A stretch of 64,000 nucleotides of DNA, taken from an uncultured Gallionellaceae bacterium. GTDB taxonomy: Bacteria > Pseudomonadota > Gammaproteobacteria > Burkholderiales > Gallionellaceae. The notes under the pieces were generated by a model. The model had not been told where the DNA came from. It made no database searches and saw nothing but the letters and a program-made list of their open reading frames with translations. The stretch is from positions 1-64,000 of the forward strand of contig CAINCU010000075.1 in the NCBI GenBank assembly GCA_903847155.1. Reading direction: 5' to 3'. Position numbers and translations under genes: made by a program. Positions 25,803-36,082 of this stretch are shown here, one piece after another (the first letter of the stretch is position 1; the number at the start of each line of letters is the position of its first letter).

Positions 25803-26918
25803 TCAGCCTGCGGCTGCCGCTTGCGCGCAAAGGTAAGGGATTCCTCCGGCGAGACGCTCATGTCCGAGCGCGAGAATGTTCCTTGCGGCATTGACGTCGC
25901 GATCATGAACGGCACCGCATTCATGACAAGTCCATTCTCTTATTCCAAGACCTACTCTACCTTTCGGACTGCTATCGCTGATTGAGCGACAGCACGAACA
26001 AGTCTGGGTGGTGTTTCTTTCGTTTACGACTTCAAACACAACTGATCGCGCTATCGCTTTGTACTCCAGTTGTGTCTTGAGCATGCCCCAGCCGGTATCC
26101 AATACCGACTTGGCCATACGTGTTTTTACCAGCTTCCTGCTACTCACATCGCCCACGAAGATGGCGCCGTAGTTCTCAGCCATCGTGGTCGTGAACTTGT
26201 GCAGCGCATCCTGGCGAGAATTCTTGATCCGGGCGTGAATGGTTTTGATGAGGTGGGTCTTGTTCGCGCGCTGGGCCTTGGCCATCCGCTCAGCAAATTC
26301 ATCGGTTATGCGACGACGATCCAGCTTCTCTCCGTCCGAACAAGTGGCAACCGTTTTGAGGCCGAGATCGATGCCGACGGCAGCCAGGCCTTCGCCGGGC
26401 TTTGTTTCGACCTTCACTGTGGTGTTGAAGTACCACCGGCCCCGGGCATCCTGCGAGAATGATCCGGTGCCCAGTTCATACTTCGAGAGGTCGTAGCTGT
26501 CCCAGATACCGAAGACTTCACCACAGAAGCGGATCTGGCCATTCACCAGTTTCACGCCGGCCGCTTTGAAGGGAATCCAGCCCAACGCCCGCTTTGAGCC
26601 GCTGGAACAGCGCCATTGCAGTTTGTTTTTCTTGAACTGGCGGCGGGACTTGGCGTGCTGGGCAATGACGGACTGTACCGTGGCAGCGCCGATAGTCAGA
26701 CCGCGTTCTGCCCGAATGCCTCTGAGCTCTTTGTTCAGATCAAACTCGGAGGTGTTGCAGTTCATGTAACCGACGCCAGGAATTGGCACCCAGGCGTAGT
26801 TGGCGGTCAATTCATTCGCTGCGTTAAACACTTGATTCACTTCGAAAGCCCACTGCGACAGTTGCTTCGCATGCTTGTCTTTGACGCGAGTTCGGAGGGT
26901 TTTGGTGTGAAGTGCCAT
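25803..26918 (-). CDS. tnpB: TnpB, RNA-guided RuvC-like nuclease of an IS200/IS605 element
   Basis: A 371-residue protein starting at 26918. RuvC Asp184 is in GIDLGLKT and the last Asp is in HDRDVNAARN (339-341). The zinc finger has Cys307/310 (TCSCC) and Cys331/334 (CHEC). The second catalytic position reads FVGDVSS (about 254-260) and lacks the usual Glu; a Glu occurs instead at VNE (300). TnpB lineages with a relocated glutamate are known, so activity is plausible. The reading frame is intact. TnpB uses a guide RNA from its own 3' end to cut DNA and favour element retention. Confidence 0.9.
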   Translation of the reverse strand: MALHTKTLRTRVKDKHAKQLSQWAFEVNQVFNAANELTANYAWVPIPGVGYMNCNTSEFDLNKELRGIRAERGLTIGAATVQSVIAQHAKSRRQFKKNKLQWRCSSGSKRALGWIPFKAAGVKLVNGQIRFCGEVFGIWDSYDLSKYELGTGSFSQDARGRWYFNTTVKVETKPGEGLAAVGIDLGLKTVATCSDGEKLDRRRITDEFAERMAKAQRANKTHLIKTIHARIKNSRQDALHKFTTTMAENYGAIFVGDVSSRKLVKTRMAKSVLDTGWGMLKTQLEYKAIARSVVFEVVNERNTTQTCSCCRSISDSSPKGRVGLGIREWTCHECGAVHDRDVNAARNILALGHERLAGGIPYLCAQAAAAG

Positions 26919-26930
26919 TGCGTTATTATA

Positions 26931-26948
26931 ACAGAACGATCGTTCTGT
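26931..26948. promoter_or_regulatory. Perfect 18-bp palindrome upstream of tnpB
   Basis: ACAGAACGATCGTTCTGT is self-complementary over its full length and begins 13 bases upstream of the tnpB start codon. It could be a repressor operator or a structure covering the ribosome site. Nothing in the window identifies the binder. Confidence 0.55.
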
Positions 26949-27174
26949 AATAAAGTTAGGCCATTCGTTAAATAACAAAGACGGGACGCCTGCGGCATCC
27001 GCGCTATCCTTCTCAGCCCTGAAGGGCAGAGTTTTTCGCGCAAATCTGATAAAATTATTTCCAGCTAGGAGTAAATGCGTGTAAAGATTCAATTGAGCCA
27101 CGTTTATCATCCCAATTTTAAAATTGCACCCTGAAATAACTGACCGATGAGACACTTCATCGATATGCATTCAG

Positions 27175-27918
27175 TCATCCTGTCTGTGCCACACTATCTA
27201 TGAAGTAATTCAAAATTAGACGATCATTCTGTTTAATGTCATTAAACTCAATACCGATTTTGAAGCCTTCTCCATCTTCCTTATGATGAACATTTCTGAT
27301 GGTTGCCGGAACATTCATTTTTTCAGAATTTCCATCAAGTTCAACAAATAATTCAGTTTGTACATGATCCCCTATTGTCCCTATCTGCTCTGAAGAATCC
27401 ACCATAGCTCCGAAAACACTTACATCATGCAACATGGCTGATATAACGGTATTGTTTGATCGTGAAACATTTACTGGCAAAGCCACATCAACGCGCAATG
27501 CTTTACGAACAATCCGGCTCTCCATATTGTGTGGCCAAGAAAACATGATAAAGGAGAATGGGGTAGTGTATCCACAGATTACTTCGGTAGTAAATGCATA
27601 GGCGAATTTGCCATTGAATCCGCGAATAACGAATTTCTCCCCTTTAAGTATCCACATTCCCTCTCCATATTTGAATGGCAAGGTTGTCAATAAGCAATTG
27701 CCTTTGATAAACCCTATAAACTTCACCCAGTGATGCACTAGCGAAGTATCAGCAACGACTTGGATTTGCATAGTATCGCCGGGATAGAGCTTGAGAGATT
27801 CGAAATTAGTCCCTGCAGTCTGGTTATCTATACCTGTATTTATACCTGTATTTATATCTGTATTTATATCTGTATTTATATCTGTATTTATATCTGTATT
27901 TATATCTGTATTTGTCAT
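27175..27918 (-). CDS. PilZ-domain protein, YcgR-like, with variable N-terminal repeat
   Basis: A 247-residue protein (ATG 27918). An alternative TTG at 27954 would overlap the hynL stop and add 12 residues. Residues 1-30 are tetrapeptide repeats of the DINT type. Residues 40-130 resemble the YcgR N-terminal domain. The PilZ domain follows, with the c-di-GMP ligands in RKALR (RxxxR) and DVSVFG (DxSxxG). YcgR proteins slow flagellar motors when c-di-GMP rises. It directly follows hynL in the same direction, so hydrogenase and motility or attachment may be co-regulated. Confidence 0.8.
   Translation of the reverse strand: MTNTDINTDINTDINTDINTDINTGINTGIDNQTAGTNFESLKLYPGDTMQIQVVADTSLVHHWVKFIGFIKGNCLLTTLPFKYGEGMWILKGEKFVIRGFNGKFAYAFTTEVICGYTTPFSFIMFSWPHNMESRIVRKALRVDVALPVNVSRSNNTVISAMLHDVSVFGAMVDSSEQIGTIGDHVQTELFVELDGNSEKMNVPATIRNVHHKEDGEGFKIGIEFNDIKQNDRLILNYFIDSVAQTG
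27830..27913. repeat. Seven 12-bp tandem repeats in the PilZ gene
   Basis: Five units of ATATCTGTATTT and two of ATACCTGTATTT in direct tandem, starting within the first codons of the gene. Each unit adds four residues, so copy-number change by slippage would alter linker length without shifting the frame. Confidence 0.9.
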
Positions 27919-27950
27919 GGTATCCCAACCGAACGTTGATACGTGCTTGC

Positions 27951-29720
27951 TCAAACCACTTTCACCTGCATCAATTCCTTACCATCCGGATCAGTCAGAT
28001 GCACCGCACAGGCAATGCAAGGATCGAAGCTGTGGATGGTGCGCAGAATTTCGATCGGCTGTTTCACATCGTAAAGTTGGTGACCTTTCAGCGCTGCTTC
28101 ATATGGCCCCTGATTGCCCGCCGCATCGCGCGGTCCGGCGTTCCAGGTGCTGGGCACGATGGCCTGGTAGTTGGAAATTTTCTGATCGTCGATAACGATC
28201 CAGTGTGACAACCCTCCGCGCGGTGCTTCCATCACGCCCACGCCTTGCGCATGGCTTGGCCAGGTCGATGGTTCCCATTTCGTTTCATTGAATGTCTTCA
28301 CATCGCCTGCCTTGATGTTGGCGACCAGCTGGTCGTACCAGCCCTGCATCGAGTCGGCGACGATCTTGGTTTCCAGCGTGCGCGCGGCGGTGCGTCCCAG
28401 TGTCGAATACAGTGCCTGTACCGGCAAGTCAAGTTTATTCAGCGTCATACCGACCAGTTCCTTGGTCTGTTCATGCCCGCTGGCATACAGCATCAGCACG
28501 CGCGCCAGCGACCCGACTTCGACCGGCCTGCCCTTCCAGCGCGGCGACTTCATCCAGGAATAATCCTTGTCCACATCCAGATGGTCGTAGGGCGGTTTCG
28601 GCCCGGTGTAGTCGAGCTTGGTTTCGCCCTTGTACGGATGCAGCCCCTGCGCCTTGCCCACGGAATAGTCGTACCACGCGTGACTGACGAATTCCTGGAT
28701 TTCGCTTTCCGCATTGAGGTCGATCGGATGAATTTTGCTCAGGTCACGATCCAGAATCACGCCGGAGGGAATCATGTAGGAAGACGGATCGGACATACCC
28801 TTGGCCGGAAATTCGCCGAAGGTGAGGAAATTGCCCACGCCCTCGCCCTGCTTCGCCCAGTCCTTGTAGAACCCGGCAATCGCCAGCGTGTCCGGCACAT
28901 ACACTTGATCGACGAATTCGCGCATCTGGTTGATGGCGTTCTGCACGATCTGCAGTCCAACCACGTTAAGCGCTGTTGCGGAATCGCCGCCACGAAAATG
29001 CGGGCCGTTGCCCTGCCCCGGATGGTTAGGGTCGATACTGATCGCACACGGCACACCGCCCACCAGGAACATCGGGTGCGGATTCTTGCCGCCGAACACG
29101 GCATGCAATTTCACCACGTCGCGCTGCCACGCCAGCGCCTCCAGATAATGCGCCACCGCCATCAGGTTGGCTTCCGGCGGCAGCTTGTAGGCCGGGTGCC
29201 CCCAATAGCCGTTGGCGAAGATGCCCAACTGGCCTGCCTCGACAAAGCCTTTGAGTTTTTTCTGCACGTCGCTGAAATAGCCCGGTGACGATTTGGCATA
29301 ACCGGAAATGCTTTGCGCCAATGCCGAAGTCGCCTTGGGATCGGCCTTCAGCGCCGACACCACATCCACCCAGTCCAACGCGTGCAAATGATAGAAGTGC
29401 ATCACGTGATCGTGGATGTATTGCGCACCTATCATCAGGTTGCGAATCAATTCCGCGTTGTGCGGCACTTCGATCTTCAGTGCGTTCTCCACCGAGCGCA
29501 CCGAGGCGATACCGTGCACCAGCGTGCACACGCCGCAAATGCGCTGCGCAAAGGCCCAAGCATCGCGCGGGTCGCGTCCGCGCAGGATGAGCTCGATGCC
29601 GCGCACCATGGTTCCGGCGGATGAAGCGCGCGTGATGAAGCCTTCGGCATCGGTCTCCGCTTCGATGCGCAAGTGGCCTTCGATGCGAGTGACCGGGTCA
29701 ACTACGATGGTTTGCGTCAT
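27951..29720 (-). CDS. hynL: [NiFe] hydrogenase large subunit (Isp-type, HynL)
   Basis: A 589-residue subunit binding the Ni-Fe(CN)2CO site. The four cysteine ligands are in RICGVC near the N-terminus and DPCIACAVH near the C-terminus. Fifteen residues follow that His and would be removed by the maturation protease HynD after nickel insertion. Gene order hynS-isp1-isp2-x-hynL identifies the Isp group of membrane-bound hydrogenases known from Thiocapsa and Allochromatium, able to pass H2 electrons to the membrane and Hdr-like subunits. It starts 10 bases after the unknown 145-residue gene. Confidence 0.95.
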   Translation of the reverse strand: MTQTIVVDPVTRIEGHLRIEAETDAEGFITRASSAGTMVRGIELILRGRDPRDAWAFAQRICGVCTLVHGIASVRSVENALKIEVPHNAELIRNLMIGAQYIHDHVMHFYHLHALDWVDVVSALKADPKATSALAQSISGYAKSSPGYFSDVQKKLKGFVEAGQLGIFANGYWGHPAYKLPPEANLMAVAHYLEALAWQRDVVKLHAVFGGKNPHPMFLVGGVPCAISIDPNHPGQGNGPHFRGGDSATALNVVGLQIVQNAINQMREFVDQVYVPDTLAIAGFYKDWAKQGEGVGNFLTFGEFPAKGMSDPSSYMIPSGVILDRDLSKIHPIDLNAESEIQEFVSHAWYDYSVGKAQGLHPYKGETKLDYTGPKPPYDHLDVDKDYSWMKSPRWKGRPVEVGSLARVLMLYASGHEQTKELVGMTLNKLDLPVQALYSTLGRTAARTLETKIVADSMQGWYDQLVANIKAGDVKTFNETKWEPSTWPSHAQGVGVMEAPRGGLSHWIVIDDQKISNYQAIVPSTWNAGPRDAAGNQGPYEAALKGHQLYDVKQPIEILRTIHSFDPCIACAVHLTDPDGKELMQVKVV

Positions 29721-29730
29721 GTCATATTCC

Positions 29731-30168
29731 TCAAACGTTCAGATATTCCGCCAGAATGCGGTATTGCGCAGCGGCCTCGGCATTGTCGGTGCCGCGACCG
29801 GCGGCGATGCTCTCGCAGGTGCGCGCCATGCGCGCGTGCATCGCGGCCTCCCACGCCGGACTGTCGCCCGCCTTGAGACAGGACAGCGCCGCTTGCGCCA
29901 CGAAGTGGCCGGCCTGGCTGTTCCAGTCGCACTCGTGTCCGCACTGGGTAAAGCTGTCCACGCTGGCTTTATTGACCGACTGGAATGCGGCAAGGAGTTC
30001 GTCTTCGGTGATGTCGTTGCGCTTGCCCACATTGATTGCACTCTTCACTCTGCCATCCTGGCTCAGCGCCAGCACGTTCTCTGCAAAACGCGCCGCGACC
30101 ACACGCTGTCCGGCTCTGGATAACTCGCCCAAGGCCACCTTGAAATCGTTGTCGTTTTTGATGGTCAT
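29731..30168 (-). CDS. Unknown 145-residue protein inside the hydrogenase operon
   Basis: An alpha-helical soluble protein of 145 residues with no recognised family. It is coupled to isp2 by an ATGA overlap and has a good internal ribosome site (AGGAGG). It contains a Cys pair in TQCGHEC (76 and 80) plus Cys97 and Cys118, with His78, a set that could bind a metal or cluster. The first part repeats short helical segments (ARFAENVLALSQDG, AAFQSVNKASVDSF). It is absent from the standard Isp gene order, so it may be an accessory or assembly subunit specific to this lineage. Confidence 0.8.
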   Translation of the reverse strand: MTIKNDNDFKVALGELSRAGQRVVAARFAENVLALSQDGRVKSAINVGKRNDITEDELLAAFQSVNKASVDSFTQCGHECDWNSQAGHFVAQAALSCLKAGDSPAWEAAMHARMARTCESIAAGRGTDNAEAAAQYRILAEYLNV

Positions 30169-31436
30169 CTTGCCTCCTTTTCTTGCGTCAGATGCGCGGC
30201 AATCATCTCGGTCAGCCCCACCACCGGGATATTCATGTGGTAGTGCTCCAACCCTTCCTCCAGCACGATGCGGCAATTGGCGCAGGCGGTGACCAATGTC
30301 TTCGCGCCGGTCTCTTCCAATTGTGTTTTCTTGATCTTGAACGCCTGCAAGCGCAACGGCTCCGCTTCTTCGATGGCGCTCACTCCGCCACCGCCTCCGC
30401 AGCACCAGTTCATCTTGCCGTGGTCGGCGCTTTCCACATAATTCTTCGCCACCAGCTTCAGCAGATTGCGCGGTTGTTCGAGCACGCCGCCGCGCCGCAC
30501 CAACTGGCACGGATCATGGAAAGTCAAACGTGCCTCCTCGAAACCCGTCGTCTTCAGCAGTCCCGCGCTGCGGAACCCGTCCAGCACTTCCAGGATGTGC
30601 AGCACCTCGAAGGTATAGGGACGACCAATCAGGTTGGGGCCTTCCCATCGCAATGCGGTGAAGGCGTGGCCGCACTCCGGGCTGATCACCGTTTTGACCT
30701 TAAGTTTTTCCGCGCCATCGACGATGCGCTGCACCAGCACTCGCGCAATGTCGGAAGCGCCGATCTGGATGCCGCTGTTGGTGGCCTCAAACGCTTCCGA
30801 ACACAGCGTCCAGCTCTTGCCAGCCTGCTTCATGATCTTGGCGACTGCGCCCAGATATTCCGGGAAGTTGATGATCTCCATCGAAGACATCAGCACCATG
30901 TATTCCGCACCCATCACGTCCAGCGGAATCTCGATGCCGGTATCTGCCTGCACATGCTTCATCTGCGCTTTCACCGCAGGCAGACGCACACCCATCGGAC
31001 TGCCGATCTCCACCGAACGCGTGCTCGCACCGACCAGCCCCGCCGGTGCATGACCGGAAGCGGCCATGCCTTCGCGCATCTTGCGGATCATGTAGGTCAT
31101 GTCGTTACCTACCGGACACACCATGGCACAACGTGCGCACATCGTGCAACTGTCGTAAACCAGCGGCTCCCATTCGGCCAGCTCGGCATCTGTCACCGGC
31201 TTGCTCAAACCGAGCATCTTTCCCAGCTTGCCCAGCAGCGTGTATTCCTGCTGCCACACGCGGCGCAACGGTTCCAGTTTGTGGATCGGCGTGTACTTGG
31301 GATCGCCGGTTGTGGTGTAGAACAGACACGCTTCAGCGCACAGTCCGCAATGCACACAGCTGGAGAAGAAACTGGCGATGGGCGCGTCAATGACTTCCTT
31401 GAAGGAGTTGATACCTTTGCTCAGAGATGCAGTCAC
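30165..31436 (-). CDS. isp2: Isp2: Fe-S/CCG-domain electron-transfer subunit (HdrD/GlpC-like)
   Basis: A 423-residue protein starting at GTG 31436, which overlaps the isp1 stop (GTGA). Two [4Fe-4S] ferredoxin motifs lie in the first 120 residues (CVHCGLCAEACLF and CTMCARCAMVCPVG). Two CCG domains follow (HDPCQLVRRGG, NWCCGGGGG, TACANCRIVLEEG), as in HdrD, which binds a special cluster. Isp2 relays electrons between the hydrogenase and Isp1 or the quinone pool. Confidence 0.92.
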   Translation of the reverse strand: MTASLSKGINSFKEVIDAPIASFFSSCVHCGLCAEACLFYTTTGDPKYTPIHKLEPLRRVWQQEYTLLGKLGKMLGLSKPVTDAELAEWEPLVYDSCTMCARCAMVCPVGNDMTYMIRKMREGMAASGHAPAGLVGASTRSVEIGSPMGVRLPAVKAQMKHVQADTGIEIPLDVMGAEYMVLMSSMEIINFPEYLGAVAKIMKQAGKSWTLCSEAFEATNSGIQIGASDIARVLVQRIVDGAEKLKVKTVISPECGHAFTALRWEGPNLIGRPYTFEVLHILEVLDGFRSAGLLKTTGFEEARLTFHDPCQLVRRGGVLEQPRNLLKLVAKNYVESADHGKMNWCCGGGGGVSAIEEAEPLRLQAFKIKKTQLEETGAKTLVTACANCRIVLEEGLEHYHMNIPVVGLTEMIAAHLTQEKEAR

Positions 31437-32092
31437 GAGGCCACCCCCTTTCTTCCAAAGATGTCACCGTTATACCAACGCGAAATAAACAACGAGAAAG
31501 TGTGGAAAAGTTTGGTGAACGGCAGCACCACCAGCAACAACTCCACCGAGAACAGATGCAGCGCCAACATCAGCGTGTATTCAAACAACAGGTGGTGGTA
31601 TGCCATGTAGCCGGTGAGCAACGGCAGCAGCGTCACCGCCCACGCCAGATAATCGCCGAAGCCGGACAACAAACGTTTCACCGGACTATTCAGGCGGTGC
31701 GCCAGCAACACACCCAAGGCCACCATCGCCGCGACCACCGAGGCATCCACCAGCGGCGTGGGCAAATTAGGCCAGCTCAAACCGGTCATGCTGCGGAAGA
31801 ATGCAATGTGCGCCGCAAGAAAGAAGATGGCCAGAAACAGCCCGGCGTGGAACACATAGCCGCTGATGTACGACACCGCATGGTGCTTCATCATGCCTTG
31901 CGCAGGCAGCGAGCGCGTGAACATCGTGCGCCAGCCGCTGCCAGGAGAATTGCTGCGCGGCTTGGCAAAATCAGGCTTGCGCCCGAGGCTGAAAATTTCA
32001 AACAAGCGCAACACGACTCCGGCGACGAACACCATCAGCGCCCAGTTCAATGCGCTGCCGCGCGCAAAGGTTAGAAGGTCGAGATGGGTCAT
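31433..32092 (-). CDS. isp1: Isp1: membrane cytochrome b subunit (NarI-like)
   Basis: A 219-residue protein with about five membrane segments and paired His residues in or near them (HHAVSYISGYVFHAGLF, LLAHRLNSP, YMAYHHLLF) suited to ligate two b hemes, as in NarI and DsrM. It anchors the hydrogenase and exchanges electrons with quinone. It overlaps hynS by 4 bases (ATGA) and isp2 by 4 bases. Confidence 0.92.
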   Translation of the reverse strand: MTHLDLLTFARGSALNWALMVFVAGVVLRLFEIFSLGRKPDFAKPRSNSPGSGWRTMFTRSLPAQGMMKHHAVSYISGYVFHAGLFLAIFFLAAHIAFFRSMTGLSWPNLPTPLVDASVVAAMVALGVLLAHRLNSPVKRLLSGFGDYLAWAVTLLPLLTGYMAYHHLLFEYTLMLALHLFSVELLLVVLPFTKLFHTFSLFISRWYNGDIFGRKGVAS

Positions 32093-33204
32093 TTCTCCTC
32101 CCGCGTCAGTTCCTGCACCGTCACTTTTTCATGCGCCGCTTTCGCCGCTGCCTTGGTGGAGCGGTTGTGCCAAGTGATCGCCACGCCCGCTGCCGCGCCG
32201 ACTGCCGCCGCCGCGCCCAACATGGAGGGAGTCATCGACACCGGCATCGACAGCGCTTTGTAGAACGATCCCGCATCCCAGAAATTCGGCTCGGAACAGC
32301 CGATGCAGCCGTGGCCGGATTGGATGGGGAAGCTGGTGCCGTCGTTCCACTTCGTGGTGGCGCAGGCGTTGTAGGTCACCGGGCCTTTGCAGCCGAGCTT
32401 GAACAGACACCAGCCATTGCGCGCCGCTTCATCGTCGAAGCTCTGCGCGAACTTGCCCTGGTCGTAGAACGGGCGGCGGTAGCAGCGGTCGTGGATGGTG
32501 TCGCCGTAAAAAGATTTCGGCCGACCCAGACTATCCAGTTCCGGGATGCTGCCGAAGGTCAGGAAATACGCCAGCACGCCGGTCATCACGACCGGGATCG
32601 GCGGGCAACCGGGCACGTTGATGATGGGCTTGTCCTTGACGATGTCGCTCACCGCCACCGCGCCGGTCGGGTTCGGATCGGCCTTGGGGATGCCGCCGAA
32701 AGCCGCGCAAGTCCCCACCGCCACAATCGCCGCCGCTCCCTTCGCGGTTTCCACCAGCATGTCGTGATTGCTGATGCCGGCGATGCAGGAGAAGCCGGGA
32801 TTGCCCAGCGGGATAGAGCCATCCACGATCAATAAATATTTGCCGTCGTTGTCCTTCATCGCCTGCATGCGCGCCTGTTCGGCGGCCTCGCCCGAAGCGG
32901 CTTGCAGCGTGTGGTGGTAATCGAGCGAGATCAGATCGAAGATCAGATTTTCCAGCGTCGGCGAATGCGAACGCGTGATGGATTCAGTGCAGCCGGTGCA
33001 TTCCTGGAACGACAACCAGATCACCGATTGCCGTCGCGCCTTGCTGATCGCCGCCGCCATCACCTCCGCCATCGCGGGCGGCAACGCCAGCATCGCCGTC
33101 ATCGCAGTACAGAACTTGAGAAATTCGCGGCGGGTGACCCCGCGCTGTAGCAGACCTTCACCTACTGTTCCGGGTATGACTTCCGGGTGCGGCGTTTTCT
33201 TCAT
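32089..33204 (-). CDS. hynS: [NiFe] hydrogenase small subunit with Tat signal (HynS)
   Basis: A 371-residue protein starting at 33204 behind AGGGAG. A Tat signal with TRREFLKF (24-31) and a hydrophobic stretch exports the folded heterodimer. Cys ligands of three Fe-S clusters are visible: ECTGCTES and VGTCAAFGG with NVPGCPP (proximal), DRCYRR with WCLFKLGCKGP (distal), and CATTKWND with HGCIGCSEPNF (medial). The C-terminus has a membrane-anchor-like segment (AAAAVGAAAGVAI). First gene of the operon; a candidate FNR site lies about 90 bases upstream. Confidence 0.95.
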   Translation of the reverse strand: MKKTPHPEVIPGTVGEGLLQRGVTRREFLKFCTAMTAMLALPPAMAEVMAAAISKARRQSVIWLSFQECTGCTESITRSHSPTLENLIFDLISLDYHHTLQAASGEAAEQARMQAMKDNDGKYLLIVDGSIPLGNPGFSCIAGISNHDMLVETAKGAAAIVAVGTCAAFGGIPKADPNPTGAVAVSDIVKDKPIINVPGCPPIPVVMTGVLAYFLTFGSIPELDSLGRPKSFYGDTIHDRCYRRPFYDQGKFAQSFDDEAARNGWCLFKLGCKGPVTYNACATTKWNDGTSFPIQSGHGCIGCSEPNFWDAGSFYKALSMPVSMTPSMLGAAAAVGAAAGVAITWHNRSTKAAAKAAHEKVTVQELTREEK

Positions 33205-33293
33205 GATGACTCCCTGTGTTGGGTGAACCATGGAATGCGGGTGCATTCTGCGCGGACGAACTTGCTTGGTCAAATTATCTACTGAATCCTTTG

Positions 33294-33327: not shown

Positions 33328-33391
33328 GCCGTCAATAGGCGATCTGCATCAGTCGATGCATGGAGAATGGTGTGGTTATTGGCTTGCGAGC
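33328..33391 (+). repeat. REP-like palindrome, copy 5, overlapping a gene end
   Basis: Core CCGTCAATAGGCGATCT, a GCATC/GATGC inner stem and a second half ending TTATTGGCTTGCG. The second half overlaps the last codons of the secreted-protein gene on the minus strand and supplies its stop. Confidence 0.8.
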
Positions 33392-34074
33392 GAGAGGGTG
33401 ATGGGCGACTGCTGCTCGACGGAGGTGAGGGTGCTGGTGCCGTTGGGGGCGAGGGTGGAGGAGATTTTCCAGTACATCCCCTTCGGGGCGCAATATTCCT
33501 GTATCCAGTTATCGCCGACAGGGCCGCTCACCGCATGGAAGTAATATTTCACCGTGACTTTGACGCTGCCGAAATCCACCAGGATGGTGGCGCTGTCCTT
33601 GCCGACGTAGCCTGCTTCGGGGAGGTAGACATATAGTTGATTGGCCGCAACAAAATCACCTTCGCCAAATCTGTTTCCATCCGCTTCGGTAATTAAGCGC
33701 AATACACCATGCTTGGGCTGTTGCAGGATGGTGGTGGCCGGGCTGGTGACGGTCCGGTTTTCGTGCATCTCAAAGTAAGACTGTGATGAGTAAATTGGAG
33801 CAAGCCCATTTTCACCTGAGTAGTTTTGATTTGGCGCTGTGGCACAGATACCGATGGTGCGTACTGTCGTCGCATTTCCTGCTTGCGCCTGATTCGCCTG
33901 GGCGATCATCACCGGCACATTCTGCGGCGGGACGTTGGGCATAGCGGGAACAGCCATAGCCTTGGTTGATTGACCTCCCGCCAAACCCGCCTTGCTGTAA
34001 TCCACCGCCGCCGCTTGCGCCACGCTTCCCATCACACTCAACAGCAATGCCACCCAGCCGATATACGCTCTCAT
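33376..34074 (-). CDS. Hypothetical exported protein
   Basis: A 232-residue protein starting at 34074 behind AGGGGGTGG. A signal peptide covers about 1-22 (YIGWVALLLSVMGSVAQAAA). A Pro/Ala/Gln-rich stretch follows, then a beta-rich domain (ATTILQQPKHGVLRLITEAD, LYVYLPEAGYVGKDSATILV) resembling Ig-like or cadherin-like modules used in adhesins and surface proteins. The last residues (ASQ, stop) are encoded by a REP-like repeat, so the original end may have been different. It is separate from the hydrogenase operon. Confidence 0.7.
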   Translation of the reverse strand: MRAYIGWVALLLSVMGSVAQAAAVDYSKAGLAGGQSTKAMAVPAMPNVPPQNVPVMIAQANQAQAGNATTVRTIGICATAPNQNYSGENGLAPIYSSQSYFEMHENRTVTSPATTILQQPKHGVLRLITEADGNRFGEGDFVAANQLYVYLPEAGYVGKDSATILVDFGSVKVTVKYYFHAVSGPVGDNWIQEYCAPKGMYWKISSTLAPNGTSTLTSVEQQSPITLSLASQ

Positions 34075-34125
34075 ACCACCCCCTGAAAAATTGAATTGAA
34101 CATCACCCCAACCAGCCACACCGCT

Positions 34126-34146
34126 GCCGTCAATAGGAGATGCGGC
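34126..34146 (+). repeat. REP-like palindrome, half copy 6
   Basis: GCCGTCAATAGGAGATGCGG is a diverged single half-unit in the short gap between the exported-protein gene and the HTH-ATPase gene. Confidence 0.6.
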
Positions 34147-34169
34147 CTAACGCTGGTACCCAGTTCCAA

Positions 34170-35186
34170 TCATCTAACAGCCAAAGCGCGTACGATCATC
34201 TGCTGGACTTCCATTGTGGCGTGTAGCGGGATTAGTTCAACCTCCGGGTGCGAAGAAGCGAATACCCGAAAAATTTCGTCCGCAAATGCCTGTCCGATTT
34301 CTTCCACTCCAGCGAAGTCCAGAACGACCGTTTTGAATTTCTCGAAACGGGATACCAGGCGCTTCGCCTGTGAGCGCGAAACAAGCTTTTCGCCCTCATG
34401 GCGCGCCAATCGAACCGGTACGATTGTTTTACTGAATGTAAATTCGTCCGGCTCGGTGAATTGCATATAGACAGAATTCAAGGTGCGCTGGCTATCGTTG
34501 GCCTGCTTCAATATGACGCGCGTTCCCGGTATATCTTCTTCGCCATCAATCAACCAGTCTTGCTGTTCAGCGTTATGCGAAAAATGCAAGTTGCGCGACA
34601 TTATTCTGAACGAATCAAAAACTCGTGAAGTAAAAAAAATGCCCTCGCCTGAATGGTTTGCCGGGTCTGTTGTAAATTTGCCTTTGGCCAGTTCAAGGAT
34701 GGCTTCTCTTGGGTAGTACAATTTCCCCAGCCGCTGGATGTGATGAAAAATTCCTTCACCGTCATCGTTTATCCAAATCTCAACATCCAGCGCCGTGCGA
34801 GAAAAATGGACATCCAGCACCGCCCCGCCGGAGTGATCAATTGCGTTGTTTATCATCTCCGTTACTCCGTAATGCCACATGTCGCGCAGATTTACCGACA
34901 AGTCGGACACAAGCGGCGCAATACTTTCCCGCCAGACAACGTCCTCGCTTAATCCCGCCAAATTGAAACGCCATGATTGTTCAATTATCGGAGCAAGCCA
35001 TGTGATTTTTGCATTCCCTGCGCCGGAAGACATAACCATTCCATCGATTTCCAGAGCGTGAAGGTGTCGGCTTGCTGCTTGCTTGGAAATGTCGAAATGC
35101 CGTGCCGTTTCTGCCGCAACGTGGCGAGCTTTATTGCGACATAAGCGCAGCATGAAATTTCTGATTTCGGATGTTTTTGCTCTCAT
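34170..35186 (-). CDS. Single-chain regulator: winged HTH, GHKL ATPase and STAS-like (DUF4325-type) domain
   Basis: A 338-residue soluble protein. Residues about 1-65 form a winged helix-turn-helix (HFDISKQAASRHLHALEIDG). Residues 85-235 are a GHKL ATPase: N-box EMINNAIDHS (110-119), G1 box DDGEGI, G2 box HSGEGIFFTS. There is no His-phosphorylation domain. Residues 265-335 fit the STAS-like DUF4325 type (FKTVVLDFAGVEEIGQAFAD). The set resembles an anti-sigma kinase and its antagonist fused to a DNA-binding domain. A perfect inverted repeat 51 bases upstream may be its operator. Role unknown; flanked by hydrogenase genes. Confidence 0.8.
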   Translation of the reverse strand: MRAKTSEIRNFMLRLCRNKARHVAAETARHFDISKQAASRHLHALEIDGMVMSSGAGNAKITWLAPIIEQSWRFNLAGLSEDVVWRESIAPLVSDLSVNLRDMWHYGVTEMINNAIDHSGGAVLDVHFSRTALDVEIWINDDGEGIFHHIQRLGKLYYPREAILELAKGKFTTDPANHSGEGIFFTSRVFDSFRIMSRNLHFSHNAEQQDWLIDGEEDIPGTRVILKQANDSQRTLNSVYMQFTEPDEFTFSKTIVPVRLARHEGEKLVSRSQAKRLVSRFEKFKTVVLDFAGVEEIGQAFADEIFRVFASSHPEVELIPLHATMEVQQMIVRALAVR

Positions 35187-35236
35187 AGCTCATCAATCAA
35201 AATGAATTGCATCGACAACAATTTTACATCTAATCG

Positions 35237-35255
35237 ACAATATTTAAAATATTGT
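35237..35255. promoter_or_regulatory. Inverted repeat upstream of the HTH-ATPase gene
   Basis: ACAATATTT and AAATATTGT flank a central A, a perfect 9+1+9 repeat. The heptamer TCGACAA also occurs at three places in 35212-35262. Position fits an operator in the promoter of the regulator gene. Confidence 0.6.
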
Positions 35256-35330
35256 TCGACAACATACCTTCGAGAAACAAACCCTGAAACTCAAAAAATA
35301 CAAGATCACCAAAGAATTGCCGGGTTCGAA

Positions 35331-35816
35331 TCAAACCCCTAAATCTGTGCATCTCGAAAACCGCCCGATGATCTCAGATGAGTTACGGCAAACCTCCGGC
35401 AGCGCCGCCGCCACTTCTGCTGTCAATGTTTCGCCCCAACCCACCAGCGATGGCTGCACGCCGATCAACGCGCGCTGCGCTGGCCAGTGATCGGTCAACT
35501 GCGAGATGGACATGAGATCAAGCAGCCCGACTTCGTGCACGCTGCTCTTGCGGTTGGCGCCGAGGAATTGATCCATCGCTGCGCCTTCGAAGCTGCGCAC
35601 CGTGCCCGGCACTGCACCCAGTTCGGCGGCGTCGATCACCAGCAGCGCGTCGCATTCGCTGATCGGCACGGCCAGCGTGAACGACAACGTGCCGCCATCG
35701 AGGAATTCCATGTCGTCGCGTGCGCCGAATTGCGCTTGCAGTTGCTGCATGGCGACGATGCCCACACCTTCGTCGGTGAGCAGTGTGTTGCCGATGCCGA
35801 GCACGAGGATTTTCAT
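35331..35816 (-). CDS. hynD: Hydrogenase maturation protease (HyaD/HupD/HynD family)
   Basis: A 161-residue endopeptidase that trims the C-terminus of the large subunit after nickel insertion. Family motifs: GIGNTLLTDEGVG with the metal-binding Glu, FLDGGTLSF and VIDAAELG with the conserved Asp, and HEVGLLDLM with the His ligand. Its ATG overlaps the hypC stop (ATGA). It probably processes HynL, encoded 6 kb downstream on the same strand. Confidence 0.92.
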   Translation of the reverse strand: MKILVLGIGNTLLTDEGVGIVAMQQLQAQFGARDDMEFLDGGTLSFTLAVPISECDALLVIDAAELGAVPGTVRSFEGAAMDQFLGANRKSSVHEVGLLDLMSISQLTDHWPAQRALIGVQPSLVGWGETLTAEVAAALPEVCRNSSEIIGRFSRCTDLGV

Positions 35817-36082
35817 CGTGTGGACACCACATCGGGAAAGTACGCATCAAGATTGGTCTCACCCTGCATCGCCGCCGCCAGGCCATCCAGCGCCAGGTTG
35901 ATCTCGTGCGCACGCTGCGCCGAAATGATTTCGCGCGCCTGCCCCAGTACGGCATACACCCAATCGCCGACAGCGACCTGCTCCAGCAACAACGTGTTCA
36001 GCCGCTCGCGCCGGGCGCGCCCTTCGCACCACGCGAACGCGCCATCGACTTCAACCACCTGCATGGGGATACCGAGACACAT
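35813..36082 (-). CDS. hypC: HypC/HupF-family hydrogenase assembly chaperone
   Basis: An 89-residue chaperone. The N-terminus MCLGIPMQV carries the essential Cys2, and VGDWVYAVLGQAREII is the conserved OB-fold strand. HypC carries the Fe(CN)2CO group with HypD and binds the large-subunit precursor. Coupled to hynD. No other hyp genes are in the window, so the rest of the maturation set must lie elsewhere. Confidence 0.92.
   Translation of the reverse strand: MCLGIPMQVVEVDGAFAWCEGRARRERLNTLLLEQVAVGDWVYAVLGQAREIISAQRAHEINLALDGLAAAMQGETNLDAYFPDVVSTR

Follow-up and report, generated by a model that had tools for sequence, protein, structure and literature searches.

The nearest characterised systems that we found to the gene described here are CapK/CapS and VapKSC, both described in one paper (EMBO J 2026, PMC13373217). 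There CapK is given the domain order HTH-STAS-GHKL and CapS the order STAS-wHTH, and the pair is presented as an autoregulated repressor with palindromic operators and a conserved phospho-Ser54, activated by single-stranded DNA and situated downstream of a restriction-modification (R-M) system in 88 of 443 cases. VapKSC, as outlined there, has the order VapK-VapS-VapC, a PIN toxin and a phosphorylatable VapS devoid of an HTH.

The window analysed here, a 64,000-nucleotide stretch of DNA from an uncultured Gallionellaceae bacterium, encodes a protein that, judged from its sequence, resembles a kinase/STAS switch condensed into one chain with a pseudo-substrate, close to these two systems. The evidence points to an uncharacterised self-controlling switch rather than to a regulator of the hydrogenase genes among which it lies. 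The features of the locus are as follows.

32089-33273, minus strand: hynS, on one flank of the gene.
33349-35357, no strand: segment of about 2 kb that cannot be aligned at the hyaD-hynS junction of locus L048; it holds the gene, the array and ORF 33376-34119.
33376-34119, minus strand: secreted-looking ORF (our reading) with a sub-threshold Big_9 match, flanked by 16-nt direct repeats.
34170-35186, minus strand: the gene, encoding a wHTH-GHKL-STAS-like (DUF4325) protein of 338 aa, from the ORF, Pfam, alignment and structure prediction; wHTH at residues about 1-64, GHKL at 66-232, STAS-like part at about 245-336.
34170-35263, minus strand: gene plus array, alignable at 75% DNA identity with L036, an unrelated place in another genome.
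35212-35220, minus strand: repeat 3 of the putative operator array, TGTTGTCGA, just past the promoter-like -10 (direct repeat, motif model, promoter consensus).
35221-35226 (-10) and 35243-35248 (-35), minus strand: promoter-like site, 9 of 12 matches, from consensus only.
35234-35242, minus strand: repeat 2 of the putative array, TATTGTCGA, within the promoter-like spacer (direct repeat, motif model, promoter consensus).
35237-35255, no strand: perfect 9+1+9 palindrome, not conserved, which overlaps repeat 2 and the stretch between repeats 2 and 1.
35256-35264, minus strand: repeat 1 of the putative array, TGTTGTCGA on the minus strand, the most upstream copy (direct repeat, motif model).
35331-36082, minus strand: hyaD/hypC, on the other flank of the gene.

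A preliminary description of this DNA had proposed that a winged HTH, a GHKL ATPase with clear N, G1 and G2 boxes and a STAS-like domain are fused in one chain, and this fusion is upheld by Pfam, by an AlphaFold2 model and by fold matches to SpoIIAB and STAS proteins. DUF4325 ('STAS-like', PF14213) matches residues 273-323 with E 1.8e-15 and 56.8 bits against a curated cut-off of 23, whereas HATPase_c_2 (E 1.3e-4) and HTH_20 (E 2.6e-4) both stay under their gathering scores, so that by profile alone the STAS-like part is the secure one and the other two assignments fall short. The full-length AlphaFold2 model, which rests on a 65-sequence alignment, has pLDDT 90 and pTM 0.84. Structure comparison of residues 66-232 gives SpoIIAB (1til) as the best match (Z 15.7, rmsd 2.3, 133 aligned); further anti-sigma kinases, RsbW included, appear in the rows that follow. 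The C-terminal 103 residues, modelled alone (pLDDT 85, pTM 0.72), resemble RsbS (Z 7.9), RsfB (7.2) and SpoIIAA (6.8); these values are middling, yet STAS domains make up the majority of the listed rows. A profile search with the STAS-like part alone returned no STAS match by sequence, and the STAS assignment thus rests on Pfam and fold; Foldseek with the same part gave no match under 0.001, the best being RsbS at 0.017. Residues N113/N114, D141/G143/G145 and G180/G182, which we take to be the N, G1 and G2 boxes, are invariant across the 65 aligned members, and the boxes are thus intact. A phmmer search of the protein against PDB sequences yielded nothing significant, and a PADLOC scan of the 338-aa chain found weak matches over the HTH region only (E 0.015 or worse). 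The three-domain protein is real, and structure prediction gives it a middle part of the SpoIIAB/RsbW type and a STAS domain at its end. The preliminary description had treated such a single chain as a departure from the norm, but it has a precedent in the HTH-STAS-GHKL order given for CapK in PMC13373217.

The C-terminal domain differs from its relatives at one telling position. STAS anti-anti-sigma factors such as SpoIIAA and VapS bear a Ser or Thr phospho-acceptor at the start of helix 2; at this classical site (residues 298-300) all 65 aligned members have GQA or GQG and none has Ser or Thr, so the autophosphorylation of the STAS-like domain that had been put forward as a check is not expected there. 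DUF4325 was present in 26 of 299 genomes of the phylum that we surveyed, and the 27 loci outside the window comprise 22 with single-domain or other long proteins and five whose proteins have HTH, GHKL and STAS matches. Ser or Thr stands at the position aligned with 299 or 300 in all of the former (22/22) and in none of the five wHTH-GHKL-STAS-like chains, which carry QA, QA, QA, PG and HG. With GQA or GQG in 65 of 65 members against Ser or Thr in 22 of 22 others, the fused domain reads as a substrate turned pseudo-substrate of its kinase-like partner domain, a view to which we lean slightly. We do not lean further because in two other chains (L206 and L208) GHKL and DUF4325 are joined and the Ser is kept, meaning that fusion by itself does not accompany acceptor loss. 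A second role for the fused domain is possible by analogy with CapK, whose STAS domain lies beside the modelled groove for single-stranded DNA.

Many other DUF4325 proteins are short, in frames of about 100-125 aa, several of them adjoining a kinase-like gene, whereas here the family forms the C-terminus of a regulator. A single-domain DUF4325 gene lies between a kinase-like gene and a PIN gene in L201 and L204 (the kinase-like gene of L204 has no Pfam match and is so named on our reading), an order that agrees with the published one of VapKSC and suggests that VapS-type partners carry the DUF4325 STAS-like family. Elsewhere (L198, L200, L212 and L215), pairs of a kinase-like and a single-domain DUF4325 gene adjoin a gene for a possibly membrane-anchored protein of roughly 150 aa, with no PIN gene, and on our reading possibly represent a further VapKS-type module.

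How far, then, does the locus resemble the described systems? With CapK/CapS it shares a GHKL domain of the SpoIIAB kinase type, a STAS domain, HTH parts and, on our reading, the character of an autoregulated repressor, but CapK and CapS are two proteins where here there is one chain with the order wHTH-GHKL-STAS-like, their phospho-Ser54 is conserved where here no Ser or Thr occupies the site, and their sites are palindromic where here we find tandem direct repeats, with a palindrome of 9-bp arms in one of 96 upstream regions. The pairing of capK followed by capS is absent as well, the next gene in the window being ORF 33376, which has a weak Big_9 match only. VapKSC consists of three genes with a toxin and a phosphorylatable VapS lacking an HTH, whereas here there is one gene and no toxin; no PIN match occurred among the nine window proteins scanned with Pfam. 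As gene pairing, domain order, phospho-acceptor and palindromic operators all fail, we do not file the protein as a member of either system, although by analogy with what is reported of them it may work like one or the other. The SpoIIAB/SpoIIAA and RsbW/RsbV switches have the same folds of both domains but consist of separate proteins with a sigma-factor target and a phospho-Ser; here the two parts are fused, a DNA-binding domain is added and the acceptor is lost. R-M controller (C) proteins act as dimers of a small HTH protein and have palindromic sites; in some loci the present gene is likewise a putative autoregulator placed just before a restriction gene, but it has three domains and direct repeats.

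Upstream of the gene, the conserved element consists of three head-to-tail copies of a word of about 11 bp at a spacing of 21-22 bp, which is about two turns of DNA and would put the words on one face. In the window the array reads TCGACAAYA three times (at 35212, 35234 and 35256), and the motif learned from 96 upstream regions, a set that includes the window and omits a locus containing N, has the consensus [CG]TT[GT]ACAATTA. Of these regions, 87 have a three-site score that surpasses the 99th percentile of 480 block shuffles, and 78 surpass the largest of the 480, nine staying below the threshold; the commonest spacings are 22/22 (41 regions) and 21/22 (32), and the spacers between the words carry little information or conservation. 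The motif was learned on the tested set, a bias lessened by holding out clusters at 62% identity: 85 of 96 regions then exceed the 99th percentile, and 57 the 99.9th, of 888 control regions that precede other ORFs in the same loci, these controls being scored with the motif of the first fold only. With the motif learned on all regions, 213 of 220 strong-site pairs in homologues stand at 21, 22, 42, 43 or 44 bp, against two strong pairs at any spacing in all 888 controls. A motif-free period test, for which 500 controls were drawn from 926 and two of 98 loci were dropped as having fewer than 120 bases, gave 21 or 22 as the best period in 61/96 homologues against 49/500 controls, and a score of 21 or more in 43/96 against 6/500. 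Because the set is made up of related sequences, ten pairs of them at least 95% identical, these counts are not independent.

The word changes between clades and tracks the recognition helix better than it does the rest of the protein. By eye, GTTGTCGA pairs with helices such as SKQAASRH, CTTTACRWTT with SRQxxSA[WR]L, and GTTGACAATA with [ST]RQAVNKH. In a partial Mantel test that controls for the remainder of the protein, the word correlates with the recognition helix at r 0.34 (none of 999 permutations as high, n=87), compared with 0.17 for the word and that remainder when the helix is controlled for; part of this covariation could come from shared ancestry.

The preliminary description had placed a candidate self-operator just upstream of the gene, in the form of a perfect 9+1+9 inverted repeat. 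The inverted repeat is there, exact at 35237-35255, and so is a candidate operator, but the conserved element is the tandem direct repeats around it, which that description did not include. Palindromes with 9-bp arms and spacers of 0-3 arose in 14 of 5000 mononucleotide shuffles of 35187-35330, and among the homologous upstream regions one of this kind occurs in the window alone (1/96; none in the 95 others), on which ground we reject it as the operator; an exact search of 194 loci found four carriers, all copies of the window's own place.

The array appears to be private to the gene. In the 3.08-Mb genome of the bacterium, a search for TTGTCGA pairs spaced by 22 bp found exact pairs solely at the gene's own promoter, one pair elsewhere at a single mismatch, and 21 matches (own included) at up to two mismatches, against 26 for a reversed control pattern. 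In homologous loci totalling 1.48 Mb, own promoters account for 152 pairs; eight more are, by strand, not at an own promoter, but seven of the eight are own arrays met on the other strand. With exact 22-bp pairs in this genome confined to the own promoter, autoregulation is the best reading, and that the protein regulates itself through the array is very probable; repression is probably the sign of this control, rather than activation. Crude ORF calling in 95 loci speaks for a solitary gene: the ORF that comes next downstream shares its strand in 41 and has the opposite one in 54. For the proposed explanation as a whole, in which the gene is a solitary, self-contained autoregulator, we put the chances a little above even.

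The gene was described earlier as sitting between hydrogenase structural and maturation genes, and it does, with hynS on one side and hyaD/hypC on the other. Among 29 hynS loci from relatives, 26 have hyaD at a distance of 23-475 bp (within 109 bp in 22 of those); in the remaining three hyaD was not found, two of these ending close to hynS. Neither the gene nor ORF 33376 occurs in any of the 29. In the window the hyaD-hynS gap is 2.06 kb, and the alignment with L048 stops at 35358 and 33348. With hyaD so regularly next to hynS, and a 2-kb insertion here, the hydrogenase neighbourhood is incidental. A 16-nt direct repeat stands on either side of ORF 33376-34119 (33328-33343 and 34126-34141; 94% identical, 798 bp apart), and relatives of this ORF are found in 12 of 158 genomes of the family, that of the window counted; for the gene the number is 26 of 158, itself counted. 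The gene has a GC content of 49.1%, hynS 61.9% and hyaD 61.3%. Among the matches listed, relatives at 67-82% identity come from MAGs labelled Chlorobium, Coxiellaceae and Gallionellales, some of which labels may be wrong. This pattern suggests a mobile single gene; tblastn of the protein against phages and plasmids gave no match at 1e-5, and a profile scan of viral_contigs gave 18 loci.

Some copies of the gene keep company with defence genes. Type I R-M genes are neighbours in six distinct loci (L035, L038 = L099, L040 = L103, L041, L106 and L117), in the arrangement hsdS-X-hsdR or X-hsdR, X being the gene, and DUF499 genes in seven (L097, L113, L118, L124, L130, L134 and L140), four of which have a methyltransferase gene upstream; the DUF1156/DUF499 identities were obtained by joining family tallies, and some Hsd names are our reading. 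In 13 loci altogether the gene is thus followed, on its own strand, by hsdR or a DUF499 gene, with a short ORF in between in L124; L113 and L130 encode proteins of 88% identity. In L039 and L041 the gene lies near hemW- and trmB-like genes (again our reading), inside a type I R-M operon in L041 and with no R-M genes in L039. The scanned stretch of the window shows no R-M linkage, and most loci likewise have no R-M or DUF499 link. In PADLOC tallies 181 models were matched by 107 of the 190 immediate neighbours (those below 80 aa and some more being left out) and 24 by 103 of the 109 genes six places away; as these tallies lack per-protein counts, and as the genes six places away also include defence genes (mad3, AbiEii and others), an excess of defence genes is not established.

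Two readings would tie the gene to what surrounds it. One makes it an ATP-gated repressor or activator of the surrounding hyn operon, as its place between hyaD/hypC and hynS might invite: it lies on the same strand as both, so that its promoter reads toward hynS. Against this stand the synteny just described, with the gene in none of 29 hynS loci, on which we reject a hydrogenase regulator; the 20 loci of 3-20 kb that carry the gene within the family, which encode none of 14 other window proteins, pilZ to trpS, hyn included; the nine other genomes in which both gene and hynS are present but separated by 24 kb or more or placed on different contigs (in draft genomes in which a contig break could hide a link, and with the G093 copy at a contig end); and the contrast of its GC content with the 61-63% of hynS, hyaD and hypC. 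We regard this reading as very unlikely. The other reading takes the gene to serve specifically in the control of defence operons based on DNA methylation (type I R-M and BREX-related DUF1156/DUF499), with solitary copies as leftovers. The recurrent arrangements in the six R-M and seven DUF499 loci speak for it, as does the resemblance of the L039 site to that of L041, minus the R-M genes; but HsdR is present in five of 98 loci (in one of them 8 kb away) and DUF499 in seven of 98, and defence genes are met six places off as well, which leaves this an outsider, unlikely if less so than the link to hydrogenase.

Two further readings concern what the array and the protein do. The repeats might be promoter elements alone, -35-like TTGACA and TTTACA words of overlapping promoters rather than protein operators, since such words dominate several clades and promoter-like matches overlap the window array; because they resemble -35 boxes, part of the conservation in those clades may indeed be promoter sequence. 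But the spacing is retained where the word is GTTGTCGA, the 888 other ORFs of the same loci have two word pairs before them, and the word tracks the recognition helix, all of which makes this account very unlikely. The protein might instead signal in trans, its GHKL domain phosphorylating a separate STAS partner and its fused STAS-like domain serving as a sensor like that of CapK. CapK does phosphorylate CapS, and its site for single-stranded DNA is modelled, with mutant backing, between its own STAS and GHKL domains (PMC13373217); the GHKL boxes are intact here too. On the other side, the 25 Pfam families most often matched by the 107 immediate neighbours (of 138 matched in all) include no STAS family, a DUF4325 search of the window genome found no second match, and deletion of the HTH of CapK is reported in that paper to be without effect, whereas here the operator word tracks the HTH. 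We hold signalling in trans to be a minority view, though a better one than the other three.

In the self-contained switch that we prefer, protomers would bind the three sites through their wHTH and cover the promoter, repressing the gene together with anything transcribed by read-through beyond it. ATP would be bound by the SpoIIAB-like GHKL domain, and the C-terminal domain would be a STAS domain of the substrate type that has lost its phospho-acceptor and, for that reason, could dock on a GHKL domain as a built-in pseudo-substrate with no phosphorylation. Depending on the nucleotide state, the protein would then either bind DNA cooperatively or be released from it; such gating seems somewhat more likely than not. 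An effector may perhaps act as a switch too, by analogy with single-stranded DNA for CapK, but an input from DNA damage is a tentative notion that we consider rather unlikely. In the 13 loci where it precedes an hsdR or DUF499 ATPase gene, the protein might act like a timing regulator of a harmful effector, while in the window its promoter would happen to read toward the hydrogenase structural genes. More speculative, and improbable to about the same degree as signalling in trans, is the idea that the kinase-substrate interface of the anti-sigma switch now links protomers into a polymer: each GHKL domain would hold the acceptor-less STAS domain of the neighbouring protomer, giving a head-to-tail chain with wHTH heads about 22 bp apart. 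Were it true, it would explain a tandem direct repeat with fixed two-turn spacing in place of a palindrome, and ATP turnover would break up the chain and thereby set off the promoter.

Relatives at E 1e-3 or better occur in at least 544 genome stretches in a scan, yet the literature that we searched names DUF4325 rarely and PF14213 not at all; in PMC7924643 DUF4325 is a table row with no function given, and the text of PMC12839542, on DUF499 with DUF1156, mentions no STAS, GHKL or HATPase. A tandem-repeat autorepressor of this kind was likewise not found in that literature. What the locus would offer is the kinase/STAS switch reduced to one gene and one promoter, with an operator code readable from comparative data, so that specificity, cooperativity and nucleotide control become testable with one protein and one 60-bp DNA. 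If the loss of the acceptor does denote a pseudo-substrate, the protein illustrates how a phosphorylation switch can turn non-covalent.

The hydrogenase region itself has some features of its own. On the minus strand, 27951-33273 encodes hynL, a small ORF, isp2 (DsrK/HmcF-like), isp1 (matching the TmcC/HmcE models below their cut-offs) and hynS in this order, which is the one of Thiocapsa-type hyn-isp operons. Nearby on the same strand, an ORF at 25803-27170 reads like what is presumably an OrfB/TnpB-type transposase, and 27175-27954 encodes a PilZ/YcgR-like protein whose N-terminus has a run of NTDI/NTGI repeats.
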